Source: Limonium bicolor
Lineage: Eukaryota; Streptophyta; Magnoliopsida; Caryophyllales; Plumbaginaceae
Reading direction: 5' to 3'
Assembly: GCA_023374045.1 (NCBI GenBank)
Contig: CM041776.1
Span: 351,477,636-351,541,635, forward strand
Length of the DNA: 64,000 nucleotides
Position numbers and translations under genes: made by a program. Of the stretch, positions 16,337-50,415 are shown piece after piece. The notes under the pieces are model-generated. The model was not told where the DNA came from and searched no databases. It was given only the letters and a program-made list of their open reading frames with translations. Position 1 is the first letter of the stretch, and each line of letters starts with the position of its first letter.

Positions 16337-16341
16337 GCTGG
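16337..16341. repeat. Target-site duplication of the nested Athila element, left
   Basis: GCTGG before the Athila LTR start; the same GCTGG follows the element at 27178-27182, and the host LTR sequence resumes exactly there. Confidence 0.95.
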
Positions 16342-18278
16342 TGATGGAGAAATATGTGACTACTTCTACCACATAGGCAGTGTACCTATCGTTTTGCGGG
16401 TATAGTGATTAAATGGGGTTGTCGATCTCAGGGACCTCGTATAATTAATTGACAAATATTTGATTAACTGGGAAATTAAGTTAAACTAAAGAAAACAGGA
16501 AATCACTTTTTCGGTTTTGATTGATTGATTAAAAAGAAACTAAACTACAAGGAAAAATAAAACAACTTAAATAAACACAGAGGGATTTAAAGAGTGATGA
16601 ATGTGATAAATAGAAAAGCGCACCCCGGGTTGTTTGCTTACCTATTCCTTTTATATCTGTTAGTAAATTCTTCCTTTAATTTTACTGCAATAACTCAGAA
16701 ACTTTAATTAATTCATTAACGACTAAGTATAATGAATCCTAACCAATTGTTAGACCTAGCAGCAGGCTAATGCTCTAGACCGGACACAATTAATCGCATA
16801 AAGAGCAGTTTCTATTGGAGTCTAATTAACCTATAGGCCGGATCAGGCTTCTAGCTGTTAATTAGGTTCAACTTCCTCTGTCTAGTTATTTATCTCAGCT
16901 CTCGCATTTTAATAAAATAACTACAAGGGTTGTTTTAACTACCGGCCAAATAATTAAAACACTTGAAGGACAGGAATTGAACTGTTGCAGTTAACAGAAT
17001 TTATTTGAAGAAATACATAACAGAATTTAGGAAATAGGTTCGCTTCCCAACCCGGGAAGCTAAAATACTTACTCGCTCATCGTTACAGAAACAACGATAA
17101 CAGAAAAGGAATGCATTAAATAAATTAAAGTAAGGGTAAGAGATAACTCCAGTTTAGAAGTTCACTCCGGTTCCTCGCTTCAACTTCGTCTTGCGCTGCC
17201 CCTGACTAACTTTATCTCTGTAAACTGGCGTGCAACAGGGAAATGAAATAAAAGTGGGATATGTGTGTTTACGTGGAAATTTAATGGAGTGGATGGGTGA
17301 TTATTTTTGATGGAGGGAAATGAAGTGAATGGAGTACGAGCGTGAGTGAGGGAGTGTGGCTGATGATTGGGATGATCGATTGATAGATGAATGCGTGAGT
17401 GAATGGATTAATTCGTGGACTGATAGATGGATGCATTGTGTTTTTTCAGCTTCCAGTAGTGTGGGTTTATATAGGCGGAGGACATGGGAAACAGACAAAG
17501 GAGAAGTGACAGGGTGAATCAAGATAGTCGGTGGAGTTGGTGCAGATCCGTGAAGATTGCAGTCAGAGATTTCATCGGGCAGTGCAATTGATTTCAGACA
17601 GATTTAATTGATGATCCGCAGCAGCCATTGATTGAAGAGCCGGCGTCACGCTCGCGGAAATTAAGGTGGGCGACCGTCTGCAATTAATGAGGTAGTTCGA
17701 CTGCGGCGCCGAGAAGAAGGAAGAAGAAAACTTTCTGTGTTTGTCCGCGCCTTAACAGGCGGACGACTCTTTCGTGTCCGCTACATAACAGGCGGTCGCC
17801 TGTGTCTTGTCCGCTACATAACAGGCGGACGCCTCTGTTATGATCCGGGACTTGGGCCTTGAATAAGGTCCCGGACCATGCATAAAAATGAGTCGAGATT
17901 TCCATCAAAATGTGGTCCGGGACTTAGTCCATGTATCAAGTCCCGGACCATACTTAAAAATGAGTCGAGATTTCCGTCAAAATGTGGTCCGGGACTTAGT
18001 CCATGTATCAAGTCCCGGACCATACTTAAAAATGGGCCGTGAGTGCTTCCGACGGGCCTAGATCTTCGTTATAAGTCCGTTTTACTCGCCGTTTGTTGCG
18101 TTGGAAAGCTCATGAGATCATCTATCCATTCAATTTTTCCTACATTTAACACATAAAATATATCAATTCATATCAAAACATAAACTAGGAAAATCGTAAT
18201 AAGTGAGAAATATTACTTAAATACTGCAAATTATAAGGTAATTAAACCCTTAAAAGTCTATATATTTCGCACTTATCA
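16342..18278 (-). mobile_element. Athila element 3' LTR (left end on + strand)
   Basis: From TGATGGAG to ACTTATCA; 1,937 bp, nearly identical to 25245-27177 (1,933 bp). The element is transcribed leftward, so this is its 3' LTR. It contains two arrays: AACAGGCGG-type repeats (17752-17836) and GGTCCGGGAC/GTCCCGGACC palindromes (17838-18023). Confidence 0.95.
17752..18023. repeat. Palindromic tandem arrays in Athila 3' LTR
   Basis: The first part has three copies of TAACAGGCGG(A/T)CG spaced by TGTCCGCTACA. The second has copies of GGTCCGGGACTTAG paired with AAGTCCCGGACC, followed by CTTAAAAATG, at a period of about 74 bp. The second type closely resembles the array in the unrelated LTR D (42688-42885). 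Confidence 0.9.
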
Positions 18279-19702
18279 AACTTCCTCACACTTATCTTTT
18301 GCTTGTCCTCAAGCAAATAAAGAACAAACTTTCTCTAAGGTTACAGTATCAAACTCCGGGATTCAACAATCGTGGAAGGAAATCAAGCTAAATGGCAATC
18401 AAAAGAATAATCCTGCTCTTAGATGTAGGTTTTTGTAAACAGTGAAACAGAAAATTTTTAATAAGAGCATGGATAAGTCAGATTGTAAAAATTGAACATA
18501 GATTAGCTTGGAACCTTCCACCAATTTCTTTTCTCTAACCTTTGGATGACAAGGGGTGTGAAGTAACACCTTATTCCGTGATACCTTTCAACACCACATA
18601 CTCATGATCAAATATGAAAAATTGCGACAATCATTCAGCATTAAGAGTTTTGCATGTTCATTTTTTTTTTTTCTTTGTTTTTTCATTGTTTGCACAATTG
18701 TTTTCATCCCCCAGACTTTTCTCTTCACCCATGTAGCGGCTTTGGGCCTTCTATCCCAGATCACAAGACCTTAGGTAGATGGGTGATAAGGCACCCCAAG
18801 GACTTAATAACCGAATGAACGAGGCCTGTTTTGGTTCAGAAAACTTCATTATATGATCAGAGGAGTACCTTGCCTTATCCTTTCCATACCAAACTTTCAC
18901 TTAGTCCCATGATTGCCAAGCTAAGGTAGCTCAATTTCCACAATCAGCTTATCCACCAGATTTCAGTGAAAATAGATTTAATTTTGAAGAAAGAAATTGA
19001 TACATACAAACAACGTCAAGCAGAACGATTCTTGAGGTTGTCATCAGGCTCGATTTCAAAAACTTCCACAAAAATTTTAGCCCGAAAATTCAACATGTAT
19101 TGGCCTTTAGAGAAGCTTACTATCATAATTAGAGAACAATAAAAATCAAGTGTGGCATTAGGTACTACTGGCATATTTTCAGGGAAAGGTCTAAACTTCC
19201 TCACACTTAAGAGGAGCAATGTCCTCATTGTTCATAAAATAATCAAGAAAAGACCTTTCAAAATATGCCAGACTCATGAATCAACAGTTAAAGCTCGAGT
19301 GGCTGAACATAAATATTAAAAATAAAGGAACTGAGACTCCCCTGATATCGTGAGATTGAGGAAGGTGCCCTTCCTCACACTTAAAGCATTGGCGGTGGGG
19401 TCGATGTTCCTCACACTTGAGTCTAAGCAAGGGTTCAGCTTGGAGTGATTGCAACAAACGGTTTACCTACACACACTGTCAAATACCAAAATAACGCTAG
19501 GAAGCGTTGCGTTAATAGCACAGGTACAATTACTCCTTCCTCTTCTTTCTTCCTCGCCCTTTTTTTTTATATATATATATATCACAATATATTAGAGAGA
19601 AATAGATGCGTAGCTTATAAAACATGAATTTGAAAATTACCCCTGGGTTGCCTCCCAGTCAGCTGCCCTCTTTATAGTCATTGGCTGGACTTTGTGAAGT
19701 AG
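18279..19702 (-). other. Athila 3' untranslated interior with repeated polypurine motif
   Basis: No ORF of note; the envelope-like ORF found in some Athila elements is missing. On the minus strand the polypurine tract AAGTGTGAGGAAG adjoins the LTR at 18279-18295. Close copies recur at 19194-19210, 19367-19384 and 19405-19420. Confidence 0.7.
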
Positions 19703-21059
19703 CTAACCTGCAGTTGGATCTTTAAGAGATATTTCATATGTAGCAGCTTGATCCAGTGTAGTACCCAGAAATTTCTTGACTCTTGACCCATTGACTTTAA
19801 ATGTTTCCCCCTTTGCATTGGCGAGTTCAATCGCACCGAATGGGGAAATGCTAATAATAGGGTAAGGTCCTGACCAGTATGATTTCAGCTTACCTGGGAA
19901 GAATCTGAGCCTGGAGTTGAAAAGTAGGACTTGGTCCCCCCCTTGAGTTCTCGATTGGCAATCATCTTGTCATGCCAGCGCTTGGTACGTTCCTTATATA
20001 TTACAGCATTCTCGTAAGATTCGTTCCTGAGTTCCTCCAACTCTGTCAACTGGAACTTGCGTTTATCACCGGCTTGCTGTAGGTCAAAATTAAGAGCTTT
20101 CAAGGCCCAATATGACTTGTATTCTAATTCCACAGGCAAGTGGCATGCCTTCCAAAAACCAACTTGTAGGGAGACATGCCAATTGGTGTCTTGAAAGCAG
20201 TGCGGTAGGCCCAGAGCGCTTCATCTAATCGAAGTGACCAATCCTTTCGAGAAGAGTTCACCGTCTTTTGCAAGATCCACTTGAGCTCTCGGTTCGTCAC
20301 TTCGGCCTGCCCATTTGTTTGAGGATGGTAGGGTAAGGAAACCTTATGTCGAACCCCATATTTCTTTAATAGTGCTTCAAACTGGCGGTTACAGAAATGG
20401 GAGCCACCGTCACTGATTATGGCTCGAGGAACGCCGAATCGAGTGAAAATATTTTTCTTCAGGAACTTCACAACAATTTTAGCATCATTAGTAGAACAGG
20501 CAAGGGCTTCCGCCCATTTTGAAACATAATCAACAGCTACTAAGATGTAAAGATTACCGAAAGAGTTTGGGAAGGGACCCATAAAATCAATACCCCAGAC
20601 GTCAAATAGCTCAACTTCTAACATGTTATTCAGTGGTAGCTCATTACGAGATAGATTACCTTGCCTTTGACACCGATCACATGTCGAAACAAACGCATGA
20701 CAATCCTTGTGAAGGGTGTTCCAGAAAAAACCTGATTCTAGTATTTTTGCGCGGTTCGAGTGGCGCCATGATGTCCACCGGCTTCTCTGGAATGGCAATG
20801 GAGGAGAATGTTTCTGACCTCTGACTTCTGGACACATCTCCTAATGATACCATCTGCACAGACTTTAAACAGATAAGGGTCATCCCAAAAATAATGTTTG
20901 ACAATGGAAAAGAACCTCTTTCTCTGCTGATAAGTCATATCAGCTGGAACAATCTTCCTAACAAGGTAGTTAGCGATATCAGCAAACCATGGATCCTCAA
21001 CATCTTCAGCTGCAAATGCTGACTCATCGGGGAAGGACTCGTTGATGGGAGTCCCATCA
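19703..21059 (-). pseudogene. pol: Athila pol: integrase
   Basis: Integrase inserts the DNA copy into the chromosome. The N-terminal zinc-binding site is recognisable (HCH..GGHHG, then CDRCQRQG). The catalytic core follows: first Asp in [12 protein letters not shown], second Asp in [12 protein letters not shown], Glu in [12 protein letters not shown]. The C-terminal part (19885-20139) and a short tail to TAG at 19703-19705 follow after frame changes. The reading shifts frame near 20740 and 20130-20140, with another change near 19890, so no single protein is made. Motif spelling matches the Athila lineage. It is the last pol domain; no chromodomain or envelope ORF follows. Confidence 0.88.
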
Positions 21060-22754
21060 TCAGATGCCTCCATTCTGGACAGATGATCAGCTACCACATT
21101 TTGTGTTCCCTTTTTGTCCCTGATCTCAATATCAAATTCTTGCAATAGGAGAATCCACCTAATTAACCTGGGTTTTGACTCTGCCTTAGCAAACAAATAC
21201 TTAAGAGCAGAGTGGTCAGTATGCACAATAATTTTCCACCCAGTAAATAAGATCGAAACTTATCTAGAGCAAAAACTACAGCTAGTAATTCTTTTTCTGT
21301 GGTCGCATAATTTTTCTGGGCATCATTTAAAGTTCGACTTGCATAATATACTACCCGAAGAATTTTATCAATCTTCTGACATAACACGGCTCCCACAGCG
21401 TAATCACTAGCGTCACACATTATCTCAAAAGGGAGTGACCAATCAGGAGACACAACGACAGGTGCAGAAATTAGCTTTTCTTTTAATAAATTAAAAGCTT
21501 CAGACATTCTTCAGAAAAATGGAACTTAACATCCTTCGCCAGTAGATCACACAGAGGTTTAGAGATTTTGGAAAAATCTTTGATGAATCTTCTATAAAAA
21601 CCTGCGTGTCCAAGAAAACTACGAATATCTCTAACAGAAGATGGTGGTGGGAGCTTTTCAATTACCTCGACTTTAGCCCGGTCTACCTCAATACCTTTTG
21701 AAGAAATTTTGTGGCCCAGGACGATTCCTTCTCGAACCATGAAGTGGCATTTTTCCCAATTTAACACCAGATTGGTTTCTTCACACCTGGACAGCACAAG
21801 ATCAAGGTTTTCTAGACAGGATTCAAATGTTAGACCATAAACAGAAAAATCGTCCATAAAAACCTCAATGCATTTCTCAATATATTCAGCAAAGATGGCC
21901 ATCATACAACGTTGAAACGTGGCAGGAGCATTACATAATCCAAATGGCATTCTTTTATAACTATAGGTTCCATACGGACAGGTAAAAGTTGTCTTATCCT
22001 GATCCTCAGGAGCTATAGGGATTTGAAAATAACCTGAAAAGCCATCCAGAAAGCAGTAGTAGTCATGTCCAGCTAGTCTTTCCAACATTTGATCAATGAA
22101 AGGTAATGGAAAATGGTCCTTACGAGTGGCGTCATTTAATTTTCTATAATCAATACAAACCCGCCATCCTGTAGTGGGACGCTGGGTAATCAGCTCACCC
22201 TTTTCATTAGGAACCACAGTTATTCCTCCTTTCTTTGGTACTACCTGAACTGGACTTACCCATTTACTATCTGAAATAGGGTAAATAATGCCTGCATCGA
22301 GTAGTTTGATTACCTCTTTCTTAACTACCTCTTTTAGGACTGGGTTAAGACGTCGCTGAGGCTGAGCCAATGGTCGGTAGTTATCTTCCATATAGATTCG
22401 GTGAGAACACAACTGAGGGCTGATTCCTTTAATATCTGCTATCGACCAACCAATAGCTGATGTATGATTGCGCAACACCTCCAGTAGTTGCTTCTCTTGA
22501 GTTCCTGTCAAGTCAGAAGAGATTATAACAGGTAATTCCGATGGTTCATTAAGAAAAGAATATTTCAAATGAGAGGGAAGAGGTTTCATCTCCACTGTAG
22601 GAGGTTTTTCAATAGATGGTCTTGGCCGGTCAGCACTTCGCTCGACTTTCTCAAATTGCTGCTGGTACTTGTGGAAGTGTGGCCGCCTTTTGTTTAACTC
22701 CTCAGCCATGAGGGCCATATCTGGATCCTCATCATCAGCTTCACAAGATGCCAT
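21060..22754 (-). pseudogene. pol: Athila pol: reverse transcriptase and RNase H
   Basis: The reverse transcriptase lies in a 423-codon frame (21483-22754): the lineage signature CSHRIYME is followed by WVSPVQVVPKKGG, WRVCIDYRKLN, MPFGLCNAPATFQRCM, and the catalytic FMDDFSVYG. RNase H begins EIMCDASDYAVGAVL near 21430, continues with TEKELLAVVFAL, and ends [11 protein letters not shown] and VADHLSRME after a frameshift around 21220. Catalytic residues are present. Frame changes near 21490 and 21220 separate the blocks. The enzyme copies element RNA into DNA in cytoplasmic particles. Assigned to Athila from motif wording and the Asp-tRNA primer site. Confidence 0.92.
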
Positions 22755-23302
22755 AAGACATCTTTCCAGGATTCCTCTTCTTCTCTGCTTAAAATAGTTT
22801 CCTGCACTAAAGAGTCAATAATATCTATAGCAAAGCAGGATTGAACAGTGGCAGGACGCTTCATGTTGCGTGTCATGTCGAAAACAACCTGCTCATCATG
22901 AAATCTTAGAATAATCTTCCCTCCTTCCACATCAATGAGAGTGCGGGCAGTTCTCATAAACGGTCTGCCCAAAATTAGTGGTACATCTGTATCTTCCTCC
23001 ATATCAATGATGATAAAATCAGCAGGGAAAATAAATTTATCAATAGAAACTACCAGGTCCTCAACTTTTCCTTTAGGATAATTATGGAACGGTCTGCTAG
23101 TTGTAACTGAACAGATGTGGGAGCACATTGACCTACACCTAATTTCTTGAAAATAGATAAAGGCATCAAATTAATACTTGCTCCTAAATCACATAAACCG
23201 TTACCACAATCAACCTTCTCGATAGCGCATGGAATGATGGGAAGACCCGGATCTCCTAACTTGGGTGGCAGTTCTTCAGGAGAACTGCAGATACTCTTTC
23301 TG
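22694..23302 (-). pseudogene. pol: Athila pol: aspartic protease region
   Basis: Retropepsin that would mature the polyprotein. The active-site stretch CGNGLCDLGASINLMPL is read around 23165-23215 in one frame. The distal part, with PLILGRPFMRTA and VEGGKIILRF, is in the 144-codon frame 22694-23128. The two halves are in different frames, so the domain is interrupted near 23128. DLGAS in place of the more common DSG/DTG is normal for Athila proteases as I know them. It lies between gag and reverse transcriptase, the standard order. Confidence 0.82.
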
Positions 23303-25068
23303 TCAATTGACTGTGTCAGACTCTAGCAAAGAACGCCTGTTAGACAAAATATCCTTCATAAATTTAGCATACATAGGCATTTGAGACAAAGCATCAGAAA
23401 AAGGGATATTAATAGTTAATTTCTTAAAGATATTAAGAAATTTCCCATATTTCTCGTCCATGTTCTTTTTCTTTAGTCTGTTAGGGAATGGAATAGGAGG
23501 ATTATAAGAGAGTTGAGAAGGTTTAATAGTGAGAGATTCAGGAGACTCCTTCTCCTTGGGATTTGTTGTTTCCTCCACTTCAGGTTGAGATTCAGCTGGC
23601 TTATTAAAATCTTCTTCAACTTCTGGAACATCAGAAACTAGTTCCTTGCCGCTTCTCAGAGTTACTGCTTTTGCATGCTCCCTTGGGTTAGGGTCAGGCT
23701 GACTGGGAAGTGACCCCGTCGGTCGCTGTGCCAGCTGTTGTGAAATTTGACTCATTTGCCTCTCTAGGCTCAGGTTGATAGAAGCTTGATCAGCGTTTTT
23801 AGCGGCTTGTTCAGAAAGTTTAGCTTCTATTTCGGCAATCCTGGAGTTTGTAGTTTGGCCTTGTTTAAGGATTTCTGCCAGCATATTCTCAATTTTACCA
23901 CTGCCTCCTTGAGAATTTTGGGATTGCTCCTGCTGTCTAAAGTAAGGTGGTCTATTTTGATTGAACCCAAAATTACCTATAGACTGATCATTACCCCTCC
24001 ATGGAGGTTGTTGATTGTTCCTCCAATTATTCTGATTGAAATTGTTAGGATAGGGGTTACCTGGTCTGTTGTTGATCGATTTTAGCTCTTCGGGGTTACC
24101 TGCAAAGCTAGGACCTTCACAGTTGAACGTTTCGTGGGCTCCTCCACAATTCTCACAGCAAGGATTCAGGAAAGGCGAAGAAGTAGCTGCCTTCGCGGTT
24201 TGCTGTTGCGTCTGGTTTACAGCTAACTTTTCCACAACTTTAGTAAGAGCTGTTAGTTGAGCGGATAAATGATCCTGTGGGGGAATATTATACATACCTG
24301 CTTTTGGCTCACCTCTCCCCTTGTTCTTGCACCACTGTCTGGTACTAGCGGTCATGGTGTCCAAAAGCTCCATCGCTTCATCCCCAGTTCTTGCCATAAA
24401 GTTTCCTCCAGATGAGGAACTTAGTACCATCTTGTTTGAATCATTTAATCCCTTAAAGAACAGTACTAGTTCTTCGCTACTCATACCATGGTGTGGGCAT
24501 TGAATCTGCAGCTCCTTGAATCTATCCCAAGATCATACAGGGACTCACCTGGTTCTTGACAAAAGTTTGTGATTTCAGCGATCTTTTCCCTTGTCTTTGA
24601 CGGTGGATAGTACTTCGCCAGGAACTTGTTTGCCAAGTCAGCCCAAGTGTGGATGCTACCCGGTTGCAGACTCCTTAGCCACCTGGACGCTCCGTCTTTC
24701 AGAGAATAGGGGAACAGCTGTAGACGAATGCGCTCGTTCAGGTTCCCCGTCTTGTTGAATGTATTGCAGAAGTCCAGGAATGCAGAGATGTGGTGTGGGG
24801 CATCATCTGAGTCAAGTCCGCTGAATTGTCCCTGGTGGTACAACGTGGTGATGAAGCTCGTCTTGAATTGCCAGGCGTCGAGCTCAGTTTGCGTCACTTG
24901 AGGGAGGACGATAGCAGAGGATCGTCCTTCTACTGATGGTTGCTGGTACTCCCCCAGAGTTTGTCTGGTCGTCATGGCAAACTGTAGTTGTCGCCTGCTG
25001 TGGAGAACTCTTTCGATCTCTGGCTGAAATTCAGCTATAGGTTCTCCTGCAGATCGAGTCCGACGCAT
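23303..25068 (-). pseudogene. gag: Athila gag
   Basis: Structural capsid/nucleocapsid protein. It starts at ATG 25066-25068 (MRRTRSAGEPIAEF), 150 bp after the primer site. The retrotransposon gag domain is clear: DFCNTFNKTGNLNERIRLQL, DGASRWLRSLQPGSI, FLAKYYPPSKTREKI. A frame change near 24484-24540 joins it to a 393-codon frame carrying the C-terminal half, with a zinc-knuckle-like CENCGGAHETFNC. That half is rich in Gln, Asn and Pro (several QN-rich stretches) and ends with FMKDILSNRRSLLE, typical before the protease. Two frames mean it is inactive unless the shift is a sequencing error. Confidence 0.9.
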
Positions 25069-25220
25069 AAGAGACGAGTTGGTATGAATATGGAAAAACT
25101 AGATTAACTATATACGTGGCAAAAATAAAGAGAAAATATCAAACAGAAAATAAAAATAAAAGAATGAAAAATTTAACTTATCCCAATTAAATAATAATTG
25201 TCAATTAACCGTGCCGGAGG

Positions 25221-25238
25221 TCCCCGGCAACGGCGCCA
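25221..25238 (-). other. Athila primer-binding site
   Basis: Read on the minus strand this is TGGCGCCGTTGCCGGGGA, a few bases inside the 5' LTR. It is the aspartate-tRNA-type site characteristic of Athila/Tat elements. Confidence 0.92.
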
Positions 25239-25244
25239 AAAACT

Positions 25245-27177
25245 TGATGGAGAATATGTGACTACTTCTACCACATAGGCAGTGTACCTATCGTTTTGCG
25301 GGTATAGTGATTAAATGGGGTTGTCGATCTCAGGGACCTCGTATAATTAATTGACAAATATTTGATTAACTGGGAAATTAAGTTAAACTAAAGAAAACAG
25401 GAAATATCACTTTTTCGGTTTTGATTGATTGATTAAAAGAAACTAAACTACAAGGAAAAATAAACAACTTAAATAAACACAGAGGGATTTAAAGAGTGGT
25501 GAATGTGATAAATAGAAAAGCGCACCCCGGGTTGTTTGCTTACCTATTCCTTTTATATCTGTTAGTAAATTCTTCCTTTAATTTTACTGCAATAACTCAG
25601 AAACTTTAATTAATTCATTAACGACTAAGTATAATGAATCCTAACCAATTGTTAGACCTAGCAGCAGGCTAATGCTCTAGACCGGACACAATTAATCGCA
25701 TAAAGAGCAGTTTCTATTGGAGTCTAATTAACCTATAGGCCGGATCAGGCTTCTAGCTGTTAATTAGGTTCAACTTCCTCGTCTAGTTATTTATCTCAGC
25801 TCTCGCATTTTAATAAAATAACTACAAGGGTTGTTTTAACTACCGGCCAAATAATTAAAACACTTGAAGGACAGGAATTGAACTGTTGCAGTTAACTAAA
25901 TTTATTTGAAGAAATACATAACAGAATTTAGGAAATAGGTTCGCTTCCCAACCCGGGAAGCTAAAATACTTACTCGCTCATCGTTACAGAAACAACGATA
26001 ACAGAAAAGGAATGCATTAAATAAATTAAAGTAAGGGTAAGAGATAACTCCAGTTTAGAAGTTCACTCCGGTTCCTCGCTTCAACTTCGTCTTGCGCTGC
26101 CCCTGACTGCTAACTTTATTTCTGTAAACTGGCGTAACAGGGAAATAAATAAAGTGGGATATGTGTTTACGTGGAATTTAATGGAGTGGATGGGTGATTA
26201 TTTTGATGGAGGGAAATGAAGTGAATGGAGTACGAGCGTGAGTGAGGAGTGTGGCTGATGATTGGGATGATCGATTGATAGTGAATGCGTGAGTGAATGG
26301 ATTAATGTGGACTGATGGATGGATGGATTGTGTTTTTAGCTTCCAGTAGTGTGGGTTTATATAGGCGGAGGACATGGGAAACAGACAAAGGAGAAGTGAC
26401 AGGGTGAATCAAGATAGTCGGTGGAGTTGGTGCAGATCCGTGAAGATTGCAGTCAGAGATTTCATCGGGCAGTGCAATTGATTTTAGACAGATTTAATTG
26501 ATGATCCGCAGCAGCCATTGATTGAAGAGCCGGCGTCACGCTCGCGGAAATTAAGGTGGGCGACCGTCTGCAATTAATGAGGTAGTTCGACTGCGGCGCC
26601 GAGAAGAAGGAAGAAGAAACTTTCTGTGTTTGTCCGCGCCTTAACAGGCGGACGACTCTTTCGTGTCCGCTACATAACAAGCGGTCGCCTGTGTCTTGTC
26701 CGCTACATAACAGGCGGACGCCTCTGTTATGATCCGGGACTTGGGCCTTGAATAAGGTCCCGGACCATGCATAAAAATAAGTCGAGATTTCCGTCAAAAT
26801 GTGGTCCGGGACCTAGTCCATGTATCAAGTCCCGGACCATACTTAAAAATGAGTCGAGATTTCCGTCAAAATGTGGTCCGGGACCTAGTCCATGTATCAA
26901 GTCCCGGACCATACTTAAAAATGGGCCGTGAGTGCTTCCGACGGGCCTAGATTCTTCGTTATAAGTCCGTTTTACTCGCCGTTTGTTGCGTTGGAAAGCT
27001 CATGAGATCATCTATCCATTAACAAGGTTTTTTCCTACATTTAACACATAAAATATATCAATTCATATCAAAACATAAATCTAGGAAAATCGTAACATAA
27101 GTGAGAAATATTACTTAGAATACTGCAAATTATAAGGTAATTAAACCCTTAAAAGTCTATATATTTCGCACTTATCA
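25245..27177 (-). mobile_element. Athila element 5' LTR (right end on + strand)
   Basis: 1,933 bp copy of 16342-18278, differing by scattered small indels and a few substitutions. It has the same two arrays (26646-26726 and 26728-26912). It ends CTTATCA, followed by the GCTGG duplication at 27178-27182. The near-identity of the two LTRs shows that this nested insertion is young, and younger than element B. Confidence 0.95.
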
Positions 27178-27182
27178 GCTGG

Positions 27183-27957
27183 ATCCGAATCCTGGCTATA
27201 ATCTTTTCCATGGACCAATCCCCTTGAATGGGTAGCATCCTGGATTAGTGGGCCACCCTAAAGCCCGGTGGTGGGATGTAGTAATCCCTGCCCGGAGGTC
27301 ATACCGACTTAACTGGAAGTAAAGTATGTAAGAAGTAAGTATTATATTTGTATTGGTCTTGACTATTGTAAGTCATTGACCCGGAGTAAAAGAGCATTGA
27401 ACACCCGATTAACCCGGGTGTGTAATGAGGCTAACAAGACCTTTGTATGTATTGGAGAATTGTATCTCCGTAATGCGGTGAGTATGGTAAGTATGGACGG
27501 TTGACTTGAATTGTCTTCCTTGTATGTATTGTATGTATGTATGCTTATGAAATGAATGTATTGAATTGTAATGTATAAAGCATGTATGTATGTATGAATG
27601 AAACGAACCGCATGTACTCGACCAAATAGTTAGCGTACCCTCGCTAGTACGCGGGGTATGCGGTTATCATATGCAGCGTAAGCTGACCCCCTAGGGGAAT
27701 GTTTTTACTCCACAGGTACCCGCGAGGCGTGACGGTAGGGTAAGGACGGGATGTGATTCTTTTTGATGTAGTTAGTAGCATTGGATGGTGTACCGAGTTG
27801 TACACGGCTAAGGCCTTTTTGTGTAGCCGGTGTACCATGTGGTACACCTTTTTGGATATCGAATCGTAATTGGATAGTAAGTAAGTATTCCGCTGCGAGT
27901 AAGGTAAGTATGGGAATGATTAGAGGATAATGGAAGGATTAGCGGTTGGGGTGTTAC
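27183..27957 (+). mobile_element. Element B 5' LTR, second segment
   Basis: Resumes the LTR at GATCCGAATCCTGG and ends GGGGTGTTACA. It contains the GC hairpin CCCCTAGGGG (27687-27696) followed by acceptor-like ACTCCACAG (27707-27715). Compared with the 3' LTR it lacks 215 bp between two AGTAAG repeats (corresponding to 38121-38341), a simple deletion. Confidence 0.95.
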
Positions 27958-27962
27958 AAAAA

Positions 27963-27974
27963 GTGGTATCAGAG
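27963..27974 (+). other. Primer-binding site of element B
   Basis: TGGTATCAGAGT, five bases after the LTR end, matches initiator Met tRNA over 11 bases. It is partly inside a 9-bp hairpin (27968-27976 with 27981-27989, one G.U pair). Confidence 0.92.
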
Positions 27975-28184
27975 TGAAGTATCGCTCTGATGATTAGAAT
28001 CTTAAGAGTAGTGATTACCGAGTTAGGATTTCAACCGTCTTAAGACGGATACTTAGAAACCTAACTAGGAATTACCGTTGATAACAACGGATACCCTTGA
28101 CGTCTGCAAAGACGATACCATTGTTTGAATCAAGACCATGAGGTCATAGTATCACGACATCTAATGTAATCCACACTTGTTCAG

Positions 28185-29637
28185 ATGTCAGGACGAGGTC
28201 TAGGTCGTCCCAGAGGAGGGACTAGTGACGGACCCAGCACGCAGACGATAGCTGAAATCGTCGCCGCCACGGTAGCACAGATGCTACCGGATGTAATCAC
28301 CGCTGTACAGCAGACACAGCAAAACCACCAGCAGCAGCCCGACCCACCTCATCCCCGAGAAACGAATTGGGTAAAAGCAGTCGCCGACCTTCGACCTCCA
28401 TGCTTTAGAGGCGAGAGCGACCCCGCCAAGCTCGAGGCTTATCTCTCTAAGATGGAGACGGCCTTCGAGACACTTGAGACTCCCGCTGGAGTTCGAGTGA
28501 GGATAGCTGCGTACTACCTCAAGGACGCGGCTATGGACTGGTGGAAGCTCATTAAGGCCGAGCACGTAGCTGACCATGCATTCGGATGGGAAGCATTCAC
28601 CTCTCTCCTCCGATCCAAGTATTACCCCGAGCATGTCAAGACCAAAAAAAGGCTTGAGCTCGATGCACTAAAAATGACCGAGAAGATGACGGTTGATGAA
28701 TATTACCGCACCTTCACCTCTCTTCTCCGACTTCTACCCGACCTTGGGTATACCGGCCAAGTCTTGGTCGACCGCTTCTACGGCGGATTGAGCCATCGAC
28801 TCCGGTATGGCATGGGCTTCACACGGTTTACCTCCCTTCAGGTAAAAATCGTTGAACCCTTAAAAGCCATGAGTAATGTGAATTTGTATTCCCGTATGTA
28901 AGTGTAACCTAATGCCTAAGTAAATCAGGAGTGTTACCATGCTGCCTCCCGAGTAGAGATCACATGCCAGCTGAGGGATGAAGATCAAGCGCTCAAGCGC
29001 AAGGCAAGCAACAAAAACACCTCCAATGACCAAAACCAATCCAAACCTTGGAAGAAAAGGAAGGGGAAGCATTCCCATCAGAAGAACACTTCCGGAGACG
29101 GTGGTGCCCATACGGAGAAGGGCAAGGCAGCTGAACCGTTACAGATTGCCTACACCGCACCAGTGGCAGCGAAGCCACTGAGGTCTCAGCCCTACAGGGG
29201 TAAGAAACCGAAACCGAATTAGTACACTTGTGAATTAGTATGTATGTGGAGTATTGTAAGTATACCGAACCTTGCTAACTTGGAAGCTATAGGTTCTGGA
29301 TTTGGCCAAGGAAAGAACCAATCTGATGGCCGCAGCTACATATGCCGTAACTGCAACAAGGATCATCCCGGCACAGATTGCCAAGGAAGGGAGATCCGCT
29401 GCTACACTTGCCAGAAGCCGGGGCACCGTGCTAATGCATGCCCAGAAAACTCTGAGCCCAAGGGCAACTACCAGGGCTACAAGCAGCGTGAAGGCAAGGA
29501 GGTTGCATCTGGCGATGCTCATGCCCAGCATACCTCCCAGGGACAGGGATCCCGAGGTCCGCAGAAGGGCGCACCGCAGAGGCAGCCGGCCTTACACATC
29601 ATTGACCGTGACGGGACCGGGACTAAGTCCGGCCCAG
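28185..29637 (+). CDS. gag: Element B gag (three exons)
   Basis: Capsid/nucleocapsid protein of a Tekay-type chromovirus. ATG 28185 follows TTGTTCAG, as in element C. Predicted exons are 28185-28841, 28929-29199 and 29293-29637; the 87- and 93-bp introns start GT and end AG, and splicing keeps frame (phases 0 and 1). Exon 1 has the retrotransposon gag domain (DPAKLEAYLSKMETAFETLE, MDWWKLIKAEH, VDEYYRTFTSLLRLLP, DRFYGGLSHRLRYGMG). Exon 2 is basic and Lys/Asn-rich. Exon 3 has two zinc knuckles, CRNCNKDHPGTDC and CYTCQKPGHRANAC. Unspliced reading stops soon after exon 1 (28901) and after exon 3 (29648). No internal stop occurs in the spliced frame. The last base of exon 3 is a splice donor that can join the AlkB exon or pol. 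Confidence 0.85.
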
Positions 29638-29825
29638 GTAATAACTGAAACCTTTGATCCTTGAAGAGCATGTCTATGTATCAAAGTAATTGTATGAATG
29701 GAAGCATGAATGCGTAAGTACTTGAAGTATGACAATGAGTATGAGTAAGTAACATGGGAATACGTATTGAGCATGAAATGAATTAGTAAGCCTAGAACTC
29801 ACACTAGATGTGATTACCACCTTAG
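29638..29825 (+). other. Predicted intron between gag and the AlkB exon, element B
   Basis: GT at 29638 (CCAG|GTAATA) to AG at 29825 (CACCTTAG|GG). Removing it joins gag codon GGC CCA G to GG AAA TTC, which is in frame with AlkB. Element C has an equivalent 133-bp intron with the same phase. This is prediction from sequence only. Confidence 0.65.
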
Positions 29826-30565
29826 GGAAATTCCTTATCTGTTACCCAATACCTTCGAACTCACCTCATGAAGAGACCGACATCGCCACTCACCACTTCA
29901 ACAACAATCAGTGTCAGGTCATCCGCCCAGGTATGATCTTATTAAAAGGATACCTGACACCCGAAGCACAAGTTTCAATCATCCGACGATGCAACGAGTT
30001 AAGAATGGGTCCAGGAGGATTTTATACACCCGAATTCCCCGGTGGAGCAACAATGAAGCTGAAAATGATGTGCTTGGGAAAGGATTGGAACCCTTATACC
30101 AAGACATACCAAACGACGCGAGTAGGAGACGGAGCAACACCTCCAGCAATACCCCCTGAATATCAAACGCTTGTCACTCAAGCTGTAGAAATTGCACAAC
30201 AGTATGAAGATGAACCAATCCCTGCACTTGAAGCAGACTTATGTATCGTCAACTTCTATGAGAAAGAAGGACGACTTGGCTTACACCAAGACAAGGACGA
30301 GACAACGGAATCTCTTGAACTTGGAGTGCCCGTAGTGTCTTGGTCCATTGGTGATGACGCTGTATTCTTGTATAGCGAGCAGAAGCGTGTGGACCTCGTA
30401 GAGAAATTGGTATTGAGATCAGGAGATGTTCTAATCATGGGTGGAAAATCAAGGTTGCTGTATCACGGGATCCAGAAGATCAAGTTGAATACGGCACCAC
30501 CGGCAATAATCAATGCCACACACATGAAACCAAGACGCCTGAACCTTACCTTTAGAAAGTATTAA
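29810..30565 (+). CDS. AlkB-family 2-oxoglutarate/Fe(II) dioxygenase carried by element B
   Basis: A 251-codon ORF with no counterpart in ordinary chromoviruses. AlkB enzymes oxidatively remove alkyl or methyl groups from DNA or RNA bases. Residue numbers are from ATG 29810. Iron ligands are His159 and Asp161 in LGLHQDKDE and His219 in SRLLYHGI. The 2-oxoglutarate-binding pair is Arg243 and Arg249 in RLNLTFR. NFY (148-150) and GDVLIMGG (205-212) are also family-typical. All catalytic residues are present and the frame is intact. The more likely mature form begins at 29826, after an acceptor that joins it in frame to gag, giving Gag-AlkB with its own stop at 30563-30565. Independent translation from ATG 29810 is the alternative. 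The wording around the motifs resembles plant ALKBH1-type proteins more than viral AlkB domains, suggesting capture from a host gene. Substrate unknown. Confidence 0.93.
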   Translation: MITTLGKFLICYPIPSNSPHEETDIATHHFNNNQCQVIRPGMILLKGYLTPEAQVSIIRRCNELRMGPGGFYTPEFPGGATMKLKMMCLGKDWNPYTKTYQTTRVGDGATPPAIPPEYQTLVTQAVEIAQQYEDEPIPALEADLCIVNFYEKEGRLGLHQDKDETTESLELGVPVVSWSIGDDAVFLYSEQKRVDLVEKLVLRSGDVLIMGGKSRLLYHGIQKIKLNTAPPAIINATHMKPRRLNLTFRKY

Positions 30566-30707
30566 TCTTGTAGTAGCATGTAATCCAGTAGTAACGTGTA
30601 TTAGAGACACTGTATGTATGATGGTTGGTTATTCAATAAAAGCAGTGTTGGTTATTAAATTCCACTTGCGTTCCACCATCTTTACTTATAATCTCATGAA
30701 TCAATAG
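30566..30707 (+). other. AlkB 3' untranslated part up to the pol splice acceptor, element B
   Basis: Short AT-rich spacer after the AlkB stop. It contains AATAAA at 30636-30641, a candidate polyadenylation signal 70 bp after the stop, and ends at acceptor ATCAATAG|GTTGTGG (AG 30706-30707). In element C the same interval has AATAAAAT-like AATAAAATAA at 52965. A polyadenylation signal here would let a Gag-AlkB message end before pol. Confidence 0.5.
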
Positions 30708-33700
30708 GTTGTGGACTCGGTACCAAAGGTAACCTGCGCATCCTCACCGAAGAACAAGCCGGCAAAAGCGGCACCATTCTAACGGAAACATTCCCAGTGA
30801 ACGGCATCGAAGCCTCAGTATTATTCGACTCCGGCGCCTCTCACACCTTTGTATCGCCATCATTCGCTACAAGGTTGGGGCTAGACGCAGATGAGCTACC
30901 AAAATTCTTGGTTACTCTCCCGTCGAAGGAGCGCGTAAAATGTACTAAGTATTACCACACCGCCACAATTCAAATCAAAGGTGAAGCGTTTCCCATCTCA
31001 TTCATTGAATTCAACGGGTTGGGATTCGACTTGATAATTGGAATGAACTGGTTGGAGCGGCACAAAGGACGAATTCTATGCGCCGAGCACCGATTGCTGC
31101 TCAAGAGTCCATCTGGGGTCACTGTTTCATACCGCCAGAGGCCAAGAGATCCTTCAACTACAGTCATCTCCGCTATGGCAATGTACCGGGAGCTCAGAAA
31201 AGGACACGAAGTGTATTTATGCCATGTGCAAGACCTGGAGAGAGATCCAGAATTCAGTGGTGATGTAGCAGTAGTCTCAGAATTCCCTGAGGTATTTCCG
31301 AAAGAGCTACCTAGTATGCCACCACAGAGAGCAGTAGAGTTTGAAATCGACCTCGTACCGGGTACTGGTCCCATTGCTAGGGCACCATACCGTATGGCAC
31401 CAGCAGAAATGACAGAGCTGAAAGAGCAGCTATGTGATCTACTCGACAAAGGGTTTATACGCCCGAGCGTATCACCCTAGGGAGCACCGGTTCTCTTCGT
31501 GAAGAAGAAGGACGGTAGTCTCCGCCTCTGCATCGACTACCGCGAATTGAATGTGGTCACTGTAAAGAACAAATATCCATTGCCACGCATCGACGACCTG
31601 TTCGATCAGTTGAAGGGAGCTTTGGTCTTTTCTAAGATTGATCTCCGATCCGGATATCACCAAATTGCTATTAAAGAGCAAGATATTGAGAAAACAGCAT
31701 TCCGAACAAGATATGGCCACTATGAATTCACAGTGATGCCCTTCGGTTTGTCTAACGCACCAGCCAAATTCATGGACCTAATGAATCGGTTATTCAGTGA
31801 TCAGCTGGACACTTCAGTAGTAGTATTCAACGACGACATTCTTGTGTATTCGAAGTCACCAGAAGAACATGAAAACCATTTGAGAAGAGTGCTTGAAACA
31901 CTGCGCGAGAACCAGCTGTATGCGAAGTTCTCCAAATGCGAGTTTTAGCTAGATCAGGTATCATTCCTCGGTCATGTCATCTCGAGCGCGGGCATTTCAG
32001 TAGATCCGTCCAAAATTGAAGCAGTGCGATCATGGCCTAGACCTAAGACTGTTACCGACATCCGGAGCTTTCTTGGTTTAGCCGGTTATTACCGGAGGTT
32101 TGTAAAGGACTTCTCAAAAGTCGCTAAGCCCATGATGTCATTGATGAAGAAAGATGCACCGTTTGTATGGACAAGCGAGTGCGAGGTATCCTTCCAGAGA
32201 CTAAAAGACTCATTGACCTCAGCGCCAGTTCTCACACTTCCAGAGGGCACAGAGGGATTTGAGGTGTATTGTGATGCATCGGGCAAGGGCATGGGATGCG
32301 TACTCATGCAGCATGGCAAGGTAGTAGCCTATGCCTCCCGCCAGCTGAAAAAGCATGAGGAGAATTACCCGACACATGATCTAGAGTTAGGAGCCATTGT
32401 CTTCGCCTTGAAGATATGGCGACACTATCTCTATGGGGTAAGCATCACCATCTACTCCGACCATAAAAGTTTGCAGTATGTATTCACACAGAAGGAATTG
32501 AATCTACGACAGAGGAGGTGGATGGAGTTCCTCTCAGATTACGACATCAACCTCCAGTATAAAGAAGGGAAGGCAACGTTGTAGCCGACGCCCTGAGTCG
32601 TCGAGCACAATCGCTTCATTCGTTACTCGCTTCTTCTAGCTTGGTTGACGAGGTGCGAGACGCTCAGTTGAGCGACCCTTACTTCATAGAGATCAGACAG
32701 AAAATCACAGAGGGTACCTTCGAGAACCGAAAGTACAAGTACGACTTCAAATTGCATGAAGATGGTCTGATCCGTTTGAATGGCAGACTATGCGTCCCCC
32801 GAAGCAATGCTGAGCTAGGGATCGCATTCTGCGAGAGTCACTTGTTCGACATTGCATGTCCATCCGGGAGCCTCTAAAATGTACAAAGACATGAAGAGAT
32901 ACTTCTGGGTCAGGAATGAAATCCGACGTGACTGAATAGTTCTGAGGTGTCTCACATGCCAGAAGTGAAGTTTGAGCACCGAAGACCGGGAGGAATGGTG
33001 CAATCCATGCCCATTCCGAAGTGGAAAATTCCCGATATCTCTATGGATTTTGTTGTTGGACTCCCACCTGCTAGGGGAGGACTCAACATGATCTGGGTAG
33101 TAGTCAATCGTCTCACCAAGGTTGCCCAATTCATACCGATGAAGGACACCGGAAGGTGGCGAAGCTCGCGGAGCTATTCGACAAGGAGATCATCCGACAC
33201 CACGGAGTCCCGAAACTATAGTATCTGACCGCGACACCAGATTTTCTTTCGAGATAATGGAGAGCAACACGGGAAGCGCTTGGTACTGAGTGAAGCTTAG
33301 CACCGCCTTCCACCCACAGACCGACGGTCAGACAGAAAGGACCATCCAAACACTAGAGGATATGCTAAGGGCATGTGCCTTAGACTTCCAGGGGAGCTGT
33401 ATTGACAAGCTTCATCTTATCGAGTTATTGTATAACAATAGCTATCATGCTTCGATTAAGATGTCGCCATTCCAAGCTTTGTATGGTAGACCTTGCCGTA
33501 CCCCGTTGTGTTGGGATGAGTCAAGCGAATCGGTCATCATAGGACCGGAGTATTTGGAACAAGTACAAGCTGAGGTACAACAAATCCGGCAAATATGAAA
33601 GCAGCCCAAGAGAGACAGAAATCCTATGCGGATGTGCGACGACGCGACCTTGAGTTCACTGTGGGCGACCAGGTGTTCTTGCGTGTCTCACCTATGAAGG

Positions 33701-34077
33701 GTGTCTTTCGATTGGCCAAAAGGGCAAGTTGAGCCGAAATTTGTTAGGCCCGTATACCATTACCGATAGGGTTGGAGCCGTAGCTTATAGGCTAGCATTG
33801 CCTGAAGAATTGGGGCGTGTTCATGATGTCTTCATGTATCACAACTCAGAAATACATAGCCGATCCCTCTCATGTTTAGAACCCGAACATTTATCCCTAG
33901 AGCCGACGATGAGATATGTCGAGACTCCATTGCGAATCCTTGATACAAAGAAGAGACACTCGCCATAAATCTGTACGAATGATGAAGGTCTTGTGGTCTA
34001 ACCACGATGTCGAAGAAGCGACTTGGGAATTAGAGGACGCCATGAAGGCGAAGTACCCGAATCTATTTGTAGACTAG
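30708..34077 (+). pseudogene. pol: Element B pol (protease, reverse transcriptase, RNase H, integrase)
   Basis: Enzymes for polyprotein cleavage, reverse transcription and integration. The frame opens at acceptor 30708 and is in phase with gag donor 29637. Protease: LFDSGASHTFVSP. Reverse transcriptase: [36 protein letters not shown]; the catalytic box is FNDDILVYS (usual FIDD, both Asp kept). RNase [37 protein letters not shown]. Integrase: [14 protein letters not shown] and [16 protein letters not shown]. The C-terminus ATWELEDAMKAKYPNLF is the chromodomain-like tail of Tekay/Del elements. TAG replaces Trp at 31478-31480 and 31946-31948. Frameshifts lie near 32577, 32860-32960, 33160-33300 and later, so pol is dead. 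Confidence 0.93.
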
Positions 34078-34583
34078 ATGTCTAGTATCCGTATAGCACG
34101 GAGGGTACGGGGTACCCCTTTTAAGGGGGGTAGAGCCTTTTGCTTTTGCATTGCTTCGGGTTAGCATTGCGTAGTATGTATGTATTGTAATTGTATTTTG
34201 TGGCACATGTAGTGCTAATTGTATTTATTGGCACAAAGTAGTGCTAGTAGTATTCGTATGTAGTACAATGAGTATGGTATGTGTGTAATGAGTAATGCAT
34301 TGTGTTGTACGGTATATGACACGAATGACATTGTGAAGTGTATTGTGAATGTATTGGGGAATGCGATTGAATGGAGTATTGTGTATGGATTGAGTATTGT
34401 GTATGGAATTGAACTGAGTATGATGTATGGTATCTGAATTGTGTATGCTGGTAGGTAAGAATTGTGAACACCTTGTAAGGTGGTAGTAGAATGTATTGTG
34501 GCAATTGGCTTGCCAAATGAGTAGAAATGTAAACCGTAACCTTGAGCAACTTTGAGGGCAAAGTTTCTTAAGGGGGGTAGATT
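34078..34583 (+). other. Element B 3' untranslated region with two polypurine tracts
   Basis: The first polypurine copy TTTTAAGGGGGGTAGAG is at 34119-34135, directly after palindrome GGGGTACCCC. The functional copy CTTAAGGGGGGTAGAT is at 34568-34583, adjoining the LTR. Between them is AT-rich DNA with GTATTGTGTATG-like repeats. Hairpin CTTTG-AGGG-CAAAG (34550-34563) sits just before the second tract. Confidence 0.8.
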
Positions 34584-37500
34584 GAAATACCCCGTAATTA
34601 AAAACAGTGATTATTAGGCTAATTATATTTTAAAGGCTTAATTACACTTAAATAAATACGAGGGAACAAATCCGAAGAAAACGGACCTTTAAAATGGGTT
34701 AAAAGCATAAACGAACCTTAAAGCGCGTTTTTCGAGGAAACCGGGAAAACGTGACTTTAAGCGGGTCAAATAGACTCGTAACAATTTTGGTCAACTAATA
34801 GTCACTAATAAATATTAGTGAAGCTTGAACCAATAAAATTAATTAAACGAGAAAATTCCGGAAAACGGGTCTCCGTTAGCGAATACCGGAAAAACGAGAA
34901 CATACGGGGTACAAACTGCAACAACAACAAGTTGTTGTGTCCCAATTGTAAATAAATAAATTAAAAATCTCTGTGTGAGGGGGGTAGGGACCGATTCCTC
35001 TCCCTCTCTCATTTATTTAATAGCTCCTAATACACTAGAAGACAAAAACTATAAACTAGGAAAGAGGAAAAAGAGAGAAATTACAAAAGTAAGAGTGAGT
35101 CTCTCTCTTCCATCTCTCACCCTCTCTCACGTAACTCCCTCCTCCTTCCTTTTGAAATTTCTCCTCTCTCTCAGCATGTCAATGGCGATTTCTTGAACCC
35201 CCACCAGCTCTCTCCTTCTCTCCTCTCTTTGAACACTCAAATCTCCTCCAAACTCAACAAAAATTATAGCATTGTAACCCCCTTGCAAAGGAGAACATTT
35301 TCATCCTTTCAAAAATTGAAAACGACCACTTTCATTTTGGTGGGTATTCTCCATTTGAAGATTCAAGTCCACCATTAGAAGCACCTTCACCTCCTTATCA
35401 TCTTGAGCTGATTTTGGCTCTCTTGTTGGGCTAAGAATATTGTTCTCTTGCTAGTCAAGAACTCCATTCATCCATTGGAAGCACCTTGTGTGTGTGAATC
35501 TCATTGGGACCGAGAACAAAGGAGAAGAAAGGAAGAGGAGGAAAAAGGAAGAAAGGAAACTAGAAACACAAGGTAATTATCTTTACCTTGAGCTAGTTTG
35601 TATGTAGTATTGTAACAGTTATTGGAGTAGTAACATGAGTAAGGAATTGAGGAATGAGTAGTAAGTATATTGTAGTATAATGAGTAATGATGTTGTAACA
35701 GTTTTTGAAGTTTTAATTGAGGTTTAAAAGCTTGGGAAAACATGGGGTATTGAATGGGTATGTGCAGGAACTTTATTGTTGTTGTAGTAGTGTTGAGATG
35801 TGGGTATAATGTGTGTATGAACAGGTTGTGAGAAAGAGAATATATGAGCTGAAATAATGTGTGGAGAATGTTAAAAATATAGGGGAGACTATGTCAAATT
35901 TTATCTAGGAATTTGAGGACTTGAGTGGTCAAGAGGGGAAAACAACCTAGGTAGTGACTAGGTGTATGTGGAGAGTGCGATGGGAGTAGTTTAATGTCTT
36001 GAAACAGATTTGGAAAAGAGTTGGTTAATAGGATGTAACTAGAAGTGAACTAGTGTATTTAAGATGCTAAGAGTAGCATTAGTTGAGAGAGTAATGAAGG
36101 ATAAAGGATAGGTTAAAAATCTGTAGCATAATGTGGAAAACCAAAATTTGTAGCATTAGTGTGAGGAAACTAGTATAAGTGTTGAAATGAAAGGAGGAAA
36201 AATGTGTAAGTATAACTAGGATTGAGTAATGTATTTGGAGAATGGATTAAGGTATTTTAGGAGGCCTAAATGGCATTATATCATGTGGGATTACATGTAG
36301 GAAGATTGGGGAAGAGATGGGTAAGAAAGGAATTGAAAAACAAAGCCGGTAGCAGTGTTCTGCTACTGTCCGACCCACAGCCTGGATCGGACGCTGGGTC
36401 GGACAAGGCTTGAGTAACGAGAATAAAACCTTCTGGAATGGTCCGACCCAGGGCCGTGAGTCGGACATGGGTCGGACAGGCAAAATTTTTGTGTGCCGAA
36501 GTTTCTGACTTCGTCCGACCCAGAGGTTGGGTCGGACATGGGTCGGACATAGCTTGGGCAACAGAACCGGAACTTTCTGGAATGGTCCAACCCAGAGGTG
36601 TATGGGTCGGATAGAACAGTGCTGGGTCGGACAGATGAATTTCAGAGAATGAAAACTTACTGGAATGGTCCGACCCAGATGTTGGGTCGGATGGTGGGTC
36701 GGACGGCCCAAACATATACAAAAAAAAAATGTTTTCATAATATGACTGTAGTGATCATATGTATGTATGTATATATGCCTATACACATGTAAGCATATAT
36801 ATGTAGTAATACACCATTAATGAAGTAATAATGGTAAGAAATTAAGTGAATGAGTAAGGAAACAAGTTTAAGAGGTAGTAAAGAAAAGAATGGTTTTGTA
36901 ACCAAGTAAGAAGGTAATAAAGTAGTAAGTATATATTGAAAGTATCAATGAAGGAGTAAGTAGATCAATAATAGACCATTGATCATACTACTTCATGTAT
37001 GTATAGGAATCAAATAGTTGATCCTCGAAGGAACCCGGTAGTACGTATACGACGGTGAACGGTATGATTTCTTCATGCCCTGTATCCTAACTTGGTTACC
37101 CCGATTTGTGTGCTTATGTGATCACCAATAAGATAAATGCACGAATCGGACTTTTATTGCACTTAATTGTGTTTGAACTATTTTGTCCTTGTTGAATCTC
37201 CTTGAACATTTAGTTTGTATAATTCATGAAATGTATGAATGAGAATGAAGTGTATGTGTAAGTATGAGTACTTGTGTATTGTATTGATGTATGGAAAGAA
37301 GGTATGGACTTCTACTAATTCCTAACGATCTAACTCCTAACATGAGTAATGAGTAAAATGGAATGAGTAGAAGCCCGATATAGTTTCGGCCACGCGTGAG
37401 GATAAGGAAACACAAGAGGCTGGATCCGAATCCTGGCTATAATCTTTTCTATTTGCCAATCCCCTTGAATGGGTAGCATCCTGGATTAGTGGGCCACCCT

Positions 37501-38418
37501 AAAGCCCGGTGGTGGGATGTAGTAATCCCTGCCCGGAGGTCATACCGACTTAACTGGAAGTAAAGTATGTAAGAAGTAAGTATTGTATTTGTATTGGTCT
37601 TGACTATTGTAAGTCATTGACCCGGAGTAAAAGAGTATTGCACACCCGATTAACCCGGGTGTGTAATGAGGCTAATAAGACCTTTGTATGTATTGGAGAG
37701 TTGTATCTCCGTAATGCGGTGAGTATGGTAAGTATGGACGGTTGACTTGAATTGTCTTCCTTGTATGTATTGTATGTATGTAGCTTATGAAATGAATGTA
37801 TTGAATTGTAATGTATAAAGCATGTATGTATGTATGTATGAATGAAACGAACTGCATGTACTCGACCAAATAGTTGGCGTACCCTCGCTAGTACGCGGGG
37901 TATGCGGTTATCATATGCAGCGTAAGCTGACCCCCTAGGGGGAATGTTTTTACTCCACAGGTACCCGCGAGGCGTGACGGTAGGGTAAGGACGGGATGTG
38001 ATTCTTTTTGATGTAGTTAGTAGCACTGGATGGTGTACCGAGTTGTACACGGCTAAGGCCTTTTTGTGTAGCCGGTGTACCATGTGGTACACCTTTTTGG
38101 ATATCGAATCGTAATTGGATAGTAAGGAGAGGATGTATAAACTCTTCATTTTTGGGAAGTAGTCTTGGAATGTAATTTATATATTCAGTATACTCGGTAA
38201 TCAAATGTAATTAACTATTTGGTATTGTAAAGTAAGTAGTATATATTTGGTTTATTCTAATCGTCAGACCGAAATGGTAAGTAGTAGTAGCCTTGTTAAC
38301 CTTGGAAGGTTAACGGCATTGTATCACCTGCCGGGAGTAAGTAAGTATTCCGCTGCGAGTAAGGTAAGTATGGGAATGATTAGAGGATAATGGAAGGATT
38401 AGCGGTTGGGGTGTTACA
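34584..38418 (+). mobile_element. Element B 3' LTR
   Basis: 3,835 bp from TGAAATACCCC to GGGGTGTTACA, followed by AGCAT. It is collinear with the 5' LTR (13513-16341 plus 27183-27957) apart from small indels, a few substitutions and the 215-bp segment 38127-38341 missing from the 5' copy. It includes the palindromic array at 36368-36706 and the GC hairpin near 37930. Confidence 0.95.
36368..36706. repeat. GTCCGACCCA/TGGGTCGGAC palindromic array, LTR B 3' copy
   Basis: Same array as 15295-15631 with a handful of substitutions, several of them C-to-T or G-to-A within the CG-containing motifs (for example GTCCAACCCA and GTCGGATGG). The pattern fits deamination of methylated cytosines. Confidence 0.9.
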
Positions 38419-50398: not shown

Positions 50399-50403
50399 AA
50401 AAG

Positions 50404-50415
50404 TGGTATCAGAGC
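50404..50415 (+). other. Primer-binding site of element C
   Basis: TGGTATCAGAGC five bases after the LTR end. A 10-bp inverted repeat (50409-50418 with 50421-50430) includes its 3' half. Confidence 0.92.

Follow-up and report, generated by a model that had tools for sequence, protein, structure and literature searches.

Long terminal repeat (LTR) retrotransposons with an AlkB dioxygenase are already known from orchids. The Gypsy_Pa_2799 elements of Phalaenopsis belong to the Tat/Ogre lineage, measure 25 kb and encode an ALKBH5-type AlkB that demethylates N6-methyladenine (m6A) in vitro; gag-pol is one open reading frame (ORF), the AlkB lies C-terminally in a separate ORF2 of 565 amino acids, the acquisition is called recent, and a screen of 121 angiosperm genomes reported AlkB-domain elements in two Phalaenopsis species only (PMC9289625). 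We describe a stretch of 64,000 nt from Limonium bicolor (GenBank assembly GCA_023374045.1, contig CM041776.1, positions 351,477,636 to 351,541,635, forward strand), hereafter the window, in which two LTR retrotransposons, elements B and C, carry an AlkB exon between gag and protease. Like the orchid elements, these are Ty3/Gypsy elements with many copies and a complete AlkB dioxygenase (PMC9289625), so that an earlier note on this DNA, which knew of no well-described LTR lineage with an AlkB at this place, was only half right. What distinguishes the Limonium elements from the orchid case is the chromodomain, an AlkB of the ALKBH1 type, its position between zinc knuckles and protease, the apparent splicing, and an acquisition that would predate the split between families B and C; element B does not have the orchid arrangement of a single gag-pol ORF with a separate AlkB ORF2. 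No report of a chromovirus with an ALKBH1 or a multi-intron gag was found in the open-access literature.

Betaretroviral dUTPase is made by ribosomal frameshifting and not by splicing, and it is a different enzyme from the element AlkB. Yet it too is a captured enzyme of nucleic-acid hygiene and occupies the equal slot, N-terminal of the protease (PMC1224870). In Ogre elements partial splicing of a gag-pol intron permits pol expression, as we propose here, although that intron is described as a single short one without a coding cassette (PMC6317226). Plant RNA viruses carry AlkB domains that are likewise parasite-borne, but the 50 viral fold matches listed are at most 20% identical, and the element AlkB, unlike these, is a relative of plant ALKBH1. 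Rice ALKBH1 itself is, unlike the element AlkB, a host chromatin enzyme (PMC10469495).

We hypothesize, with a probability of about 0.62, that a chromovirus lineage acquired an ALKBH1-type Fe(II)/2-oxoglutarate dioxygenase ahead of the split into families B and C and has retained it as an alternative final gag exon, giving a Gag-AlkB protein that acts in the particle.

An ALKBH1-type dioxygenase between gag and protease

The features of the two elements are as follows.

13513..38418, + strand: element B, chromovirus LTR retrotransposon holding a nested element (self-BLAST, ends)
13508-13512 and 38419-38423: AGCAT, 5 bp target duplication of element B (ends)
13513..16341, + strand: 5' LTR of B, first part (97.4% to 3' LTR)
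27178..27958, + strand: 5' LTR of B, second part (self-BLAST)
28185..28841, + strand: gag exon 1, capsid PF03732 (Pfam)
28842..28928, + strand: intron 1, GT..AG (read by eye; precisely absent in 4/67 other copies)
28929..29199, + strand: gag exon 2 (splice reading, phases)
29200..29292, + strand: intron 2 (precisely absent in 1/67 other copies)
29293..29637, + strand: gag exon 3, carrying two zinc knuckles (seen by eye, without a Pfam match)
29638..29825, + strand: intron 3, donor GT 29638, AlkB acceptor AG 29824-29825 (B/C alignment)
29826..30565, + strand: AlkB exon with its own stop (PF13532, conservation)
30566..30707, + strand: 3' part of the AlkB cassette, with AATAAA 30635 and pol acceptor AG 30706-30707
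30708..31477, + strand: pol exon, protease RVP_2 (Pfam, phase)
31478..34076, + strand: reverse transcriptase (RT), RNase H, integrase, chromodomain (disrupted in the B copy by stops and frame breaks)
34583..38418, + strand: 3' LTR of B (self-BLAST, ends)
46295..60845, + strand: element C, second chromovirus with AlkB, CTATC duplication at both ends (self-BLAST, ends)
46295-50398 and 56718-60845, + strand: LTRs of C (self-BLAST, ends)
52164..52901, + strand: AlkB exon of C, in the same slot as in B (frame broken in two places)

The earlier note had proposed a complete 251-codon AlkB ORF in a chromovirus, flanked by gag and protease. The frame is indeed uninterrupted from 29810 to 30565 on the + strand, and its product matches the whole of PF13532 (E 3.4e-44, profile positions 1-194 of 194) over ORF residues 41-249. 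The residues named in the note, HxD at 159/161, distal His219, Arg243 and Arg249, likewise hold in ORF numbering and complete the HxD...H and RxxxxxR signature; in our own numbering they are 153/155/213/237/243, six being added for ORF numbers. Pfam also recognizes the gag (PF03732, 3e-16) and protease (RVP_2, 5.5e-26) on either side, as well as RT and RNase H. The start of the ORF, on the other hand, did not stand, since GTG 29810 is read as intronic and the exon begins at 29826. Neither of the outcomes that the note had named as refuting it was seen: the AlkB profile is matched and copies are many. That the chromovirus holds an intact and conserved AlkB is supported. The introns, the AlkB of element C and the alternative-exon layout are absent from the note.

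Among the AlkB types, the element AlkB comes nearest to ALKBH1. Its nearest solved fold is rice ALKBH1 (5xoi/5xeg), at about 51% identity; a search of PDB sequences (22 sequences, E <= 0.1) listed AlkB and ALKBH1 and no ALKBH5, and the first ALKBH5 in a Foldseek search stood at rank 44 with 16% identity. Judged from these matches it is not of the ALKBH5 type described for the orchid elements. The AlkBs of B and C form one clade with four relatives, P0001-P0004 (support 100/100), outside the sampled hosts; a grouping of angiosperm hosts with this clade has support of 43/19, and the alternative has a p-AU (approximately unbiased test) of 0.48. D177, K186 and R187 occur in all six members of the clade and in 0, 1 and 0 of 35 hosts, and the alignment shows KR at positions 186-187 in E. 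coli AlkB too. In viral contigs the AlkB protein had only two weak matches, and neither gag nor the AlkB alignment had any; the alignment had none in prokaryote contigs. The gag exon was compared with 784 candidates and matched no related protein at E <= 0.001. Among the relatives tabulated, six proteins from a fern, a liverwort and others (P0139, P0132, P0150, P0152, P0154, P0160) join an AlkB domain to PF06221 and PF23134, a combination carried by no named angiosperm protein in the table.

Selection and copy number

Over 243 codons the AlkBs of B and C differ with a nonsynonymous rate (dN) of 0.159 and a synonymous rate (dS) of 2.12, a ratio of 0.075; since dS is saturated, the B/C split is evidently old. 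Differences fall on the three codon positions as 48, 31 and 118, similar to the protease (48, 30, 146), and identity between B and C is 0.73 in AlkB, 0.50 in intron 3 and 0.58 from the AlkB stop to pol. The search of the plant's own genome (2,924,550,425 bases in 2686 contigs) with the AlkB protein of B yielded 52,484 candidates at first look, a figure that should not be taken for confirmed matches. Of these the best 150, the window's own included, were scored. Each is at least 92% identical across 249 or more of the 251 residues; by hand count, 116 are free of internal stops and 34 contain them. We read 67 other copies from the best-scored 149 other matches (68 rows with the window), a choice that biases them towards intactness. 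AlkB is present in all 67 because they were chosen by AlkB match; 57 are open, ten have one stop and none has changed length. The protease is found in 66 (open in 34), and gag exons 3, 2 and 1 in 63, 60 and 59; in some copies unrelated sequence takes the place of all or part of gag exons 1-2. Across the 68 rows variable AlkB sites are distributed over codon positions as 100, 56 and 142, those of intron 3 evenly (53, 52, 49), and the catalytic residues are retained in 65 to 68 rows.

These figures bear on the idea that the AlkB is a host exon which travels with the element as a chance passenger. AlkB-less copies do occur and 34 of the 150 scored matches have stops, as a passenger would allow, but the AlkB sits in the equal slot of two diverged families, under purifying selection and in at least 150 close copies. 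The dN/dS of 0.075 already contradicts this idea, which we consider highly improbable.

Probable splicing, and copies without the cassette

In both families gag is interrupted by three introns. The splice points were chosen by eye; all seven in B are matched by GT or AG in C, and around AlkB the alignment is column-exact at the intron 3 donor, the AlkB acceptor, the stop and the pol acceptor. In three of four cases the intron lengths of B and C differ by a number not divisible by three, and yet the joined phases are equal, phase 0 for intron 1 and phase 1 for intron 2, gag-AlkB and gag-pol. Intron 1 is precisely missing in four of the 67 copies, each of which is nearest to intron-bearing copies and not to the other three, and intron 2 in one, where the join carries a single base change. 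Nine genome sites are precisely without the entire AlkB cassette (four exact, five with two mismatches), a reversed-pattern control for this junction giving no match genome-wide. In all eight loci read, gag exon 3 is complete to its last base and pol begins with its first. Skipping of AlkB joins gag to pol in frame. Of the eight, L073 has lost introns 1 and 2 as well, and by arithmetic the same holds for L075 and L076; L071 and L072 retain both introns and L074 retains intron 2. Because copies exist precisely without intron 1, intron 2 or the cassette, splicing of the element RNA is supported, and such copies form a natural record of it.

The cassette-free copies could instead be ancestral, the junctions being empty sites into which AlkB was later inserted. 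L075-L078 form a diverged AlkB-less set, and a 20-row pol tree, in which no branch is strongly supported, remains compatible with a single change (L078, whose pol is largely non-homologous, has no meaningful position in it). In that tree, however, L074 and L071-L073 group with AlkB-bearing copies of the B family and the bootstrap trees need two to three changes; moreover, introns 1 and 2 are missing from L073 too, and C has an AlkB though its protease is less like that of B than is the protease of L075 (0.71 against 0.83). An ancestral empty site is therefore improbable. L075 and L076 are 99.8% alike, and AlkB-less copies may thus still be spreading, or these two were duplicated.

Translation of AlkB and the proposed end of its RNA

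The 36 codons before the first ATG of the AlkB exon are identical between B and C at 25 positions (null mean 14.8; reached in 0 of 20,000 shuffles), whereas the last 16 codons of the intron, read in the AlkB frame, agree at four (2,765 of 20,000 shuffles). The open frame of B has no ATG upstream of the 36 codons, and element C has stops in the intron stretch before the AlkB exon. Since the 36 codons are conserved and the intron end is not, and given the missing ATG in B and the stops in C, translation most likely enters AlkB from gag through the splice. If AlkB were instead made separately, starting at the conserved ATG inside the exon (29936) or under a promoter of its own, it would be free in the cell and might for instance remove m6A from element or host RNA. 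The Pfam domain is nearly complete from ATG 29936, and the orchid ORF2 is separate and demethylates m6A in vitro (PMC9289625); against this, the 36 codons upstream of that ATG are under protein-level constraint and are preceded by an acceptor in phase with gag, which makes separate synthesis unlikely.

The AATAAA 3' of the AlkB stop is the only one on the + strand of the internal region of B and is kept in 65 of 68 rows; element C has one at a similar distance past its AlkB stop and two more within introns. Of four segments compared among B-family copies, 30566-30707 varies least (a pairwise difference of 0.035, with 0.041 for AlkB, 0.067 for protease and 0.11 for intron 3), which perhaps reflects poly(A) and splice control; a folded RNA element 3' of the AlkB stop was not supported (z -0.18). 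The main use of AlkB might be regulatory: as a terminal exon under control it would set the ratio of Gag to Gag-Pol through its stop and poly(A) site, and enzyme activity would be secondary. Position, stop, AATAAA and skip junctions all fit, and Ogre relies on partial splicing for pol (PMC6317226), but the retained catalytic residues and the dN/dS ratio argue for selection on the protein, and we regard a mainly regulatory exon as improbable too.

Several observations weigh against a spliced Gag-AlkB. The gag-to-AlkB join was seen in none of the 67 copies read, and no Gag-AlkB fusion protein occurred among 40 long matches as judged by precomputed domains. A non-AUG start of AlkB, for example at GTG 29810, is a possible alternative. 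The ends of intron 1 share a short direct repeat, and a deletion there could mimic splicing. Gag exon 3 of B and C is as unlike as the introns (identity 0.47). The AATAAA offsets from the AlkB stop differ (69 and 60 nt), C has its two intronic AATAAA, and plant poly(A) signals are loose. Finally, there are copies that have no AlkB, and some of these group with the B family, so that AlkB may not be needed in cis.

Possible role of the element AlkB

Under the hypothesis of an alternative last gag exon, the last gag donor would, on inclusion, be joined to 29826 and the RNA would end near the AATAAA past the AlkB stop, giving a Gag-AlkB fusion in which AlkB follows the zinc knuckles, whereas skipping would give Gag-Pol. 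Such a position points to a place of action within the particle. Gag-AlkB would be taken up into the virus-like particle, where its targets would be the packaged RNA, cDNA or tRNA primer; it would remove methyl groups, as in lesions of the N1-methyladenine (m1A) or 3-methylcytosine (m3C) type or in N6-methyladenine, which obstruct reverse transcription or flag the RNA for repression. That the element uses its AlkB on nucleic acids is plausible. Human ALKBH1 acts on m1A58, and we take the primer-binding site of the element to be an initiator-tRNA site. More tentatively, packaged Gag-AlkB could strip RT-blocking m1A/m3C from the template, m1A58, the usual stop of plus-strand DNA, from the initiator-tRNA primer or N6-methyl from single-stranded cDNA, a form of template cleaning or primer editing dosed by alternative splicing. 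In HIV-1 the plus-strand stop is set by m1A58 of the primer tRNA (PMC13191261), ONSEN RNA is restrained by m6A and released by AtALKBH9B (review, PMC12786077), and ALKBH1 has N6-methyldeoxyadenine (6mA) in single-stranded or unpaired DNA as a substrate, loss of the enzyme in rice raising R-loop 6mA (PMC10469495).

The window thus suggests an abundant retrotransposon with AlkB as an optional exon between gag and protease, which may clean or edit nucleic acids during copying. Together with the orchid case it points to repeated uptake of AlkB by LTR retrotransposons, the sources being different AlkB subfamilies. Here the AlkB would have been kept through deep divergence at high copy number, and what nucleic-acid demethylation does in the life cycle of a retrotransposon becomes testable.

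Classification of the elements and the rest of the window

The LTRs of B measure about 3.6-3.8 kb and have TG..CA ends; they share only two short matches with those of C, and B and C are therefore treated as different families. The long LTRs and initiator-Met-like primer-binding site would fit the Tekay clade, the type proposed for element B in the earlier note. A chromodomain (PF00385) follows the integrase in both, above the cut-off in C (2.4e-6) and below it in B (6.9e-4). LTR distances are 0.0186 for B, 0.037 for C and 0.010 for the nested element (16342-27177, - strand) that interrupts the 5' LTR of B; the nested element is thus younger than B. It is a non-AlkB Ty3-type LTR element with gag, RT and integrase matches and a GCTGG target duplication. 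Minisatellite-like repeats of about 70 nt lie within the LTRs of B (15296-15629 and 36368-36706), with a similar array in an LTR of C (48592-48922). Elsewhere the window holds a Copia-type pol fragment (Pol_BBD, gag_pre-integrs) at 39231-39794 on the + strand and, at 45402-45812, an inverted repeat with 141-nt arms, 97% complementary and 129 nt apart, which resembles a small hairpin-type transposon.
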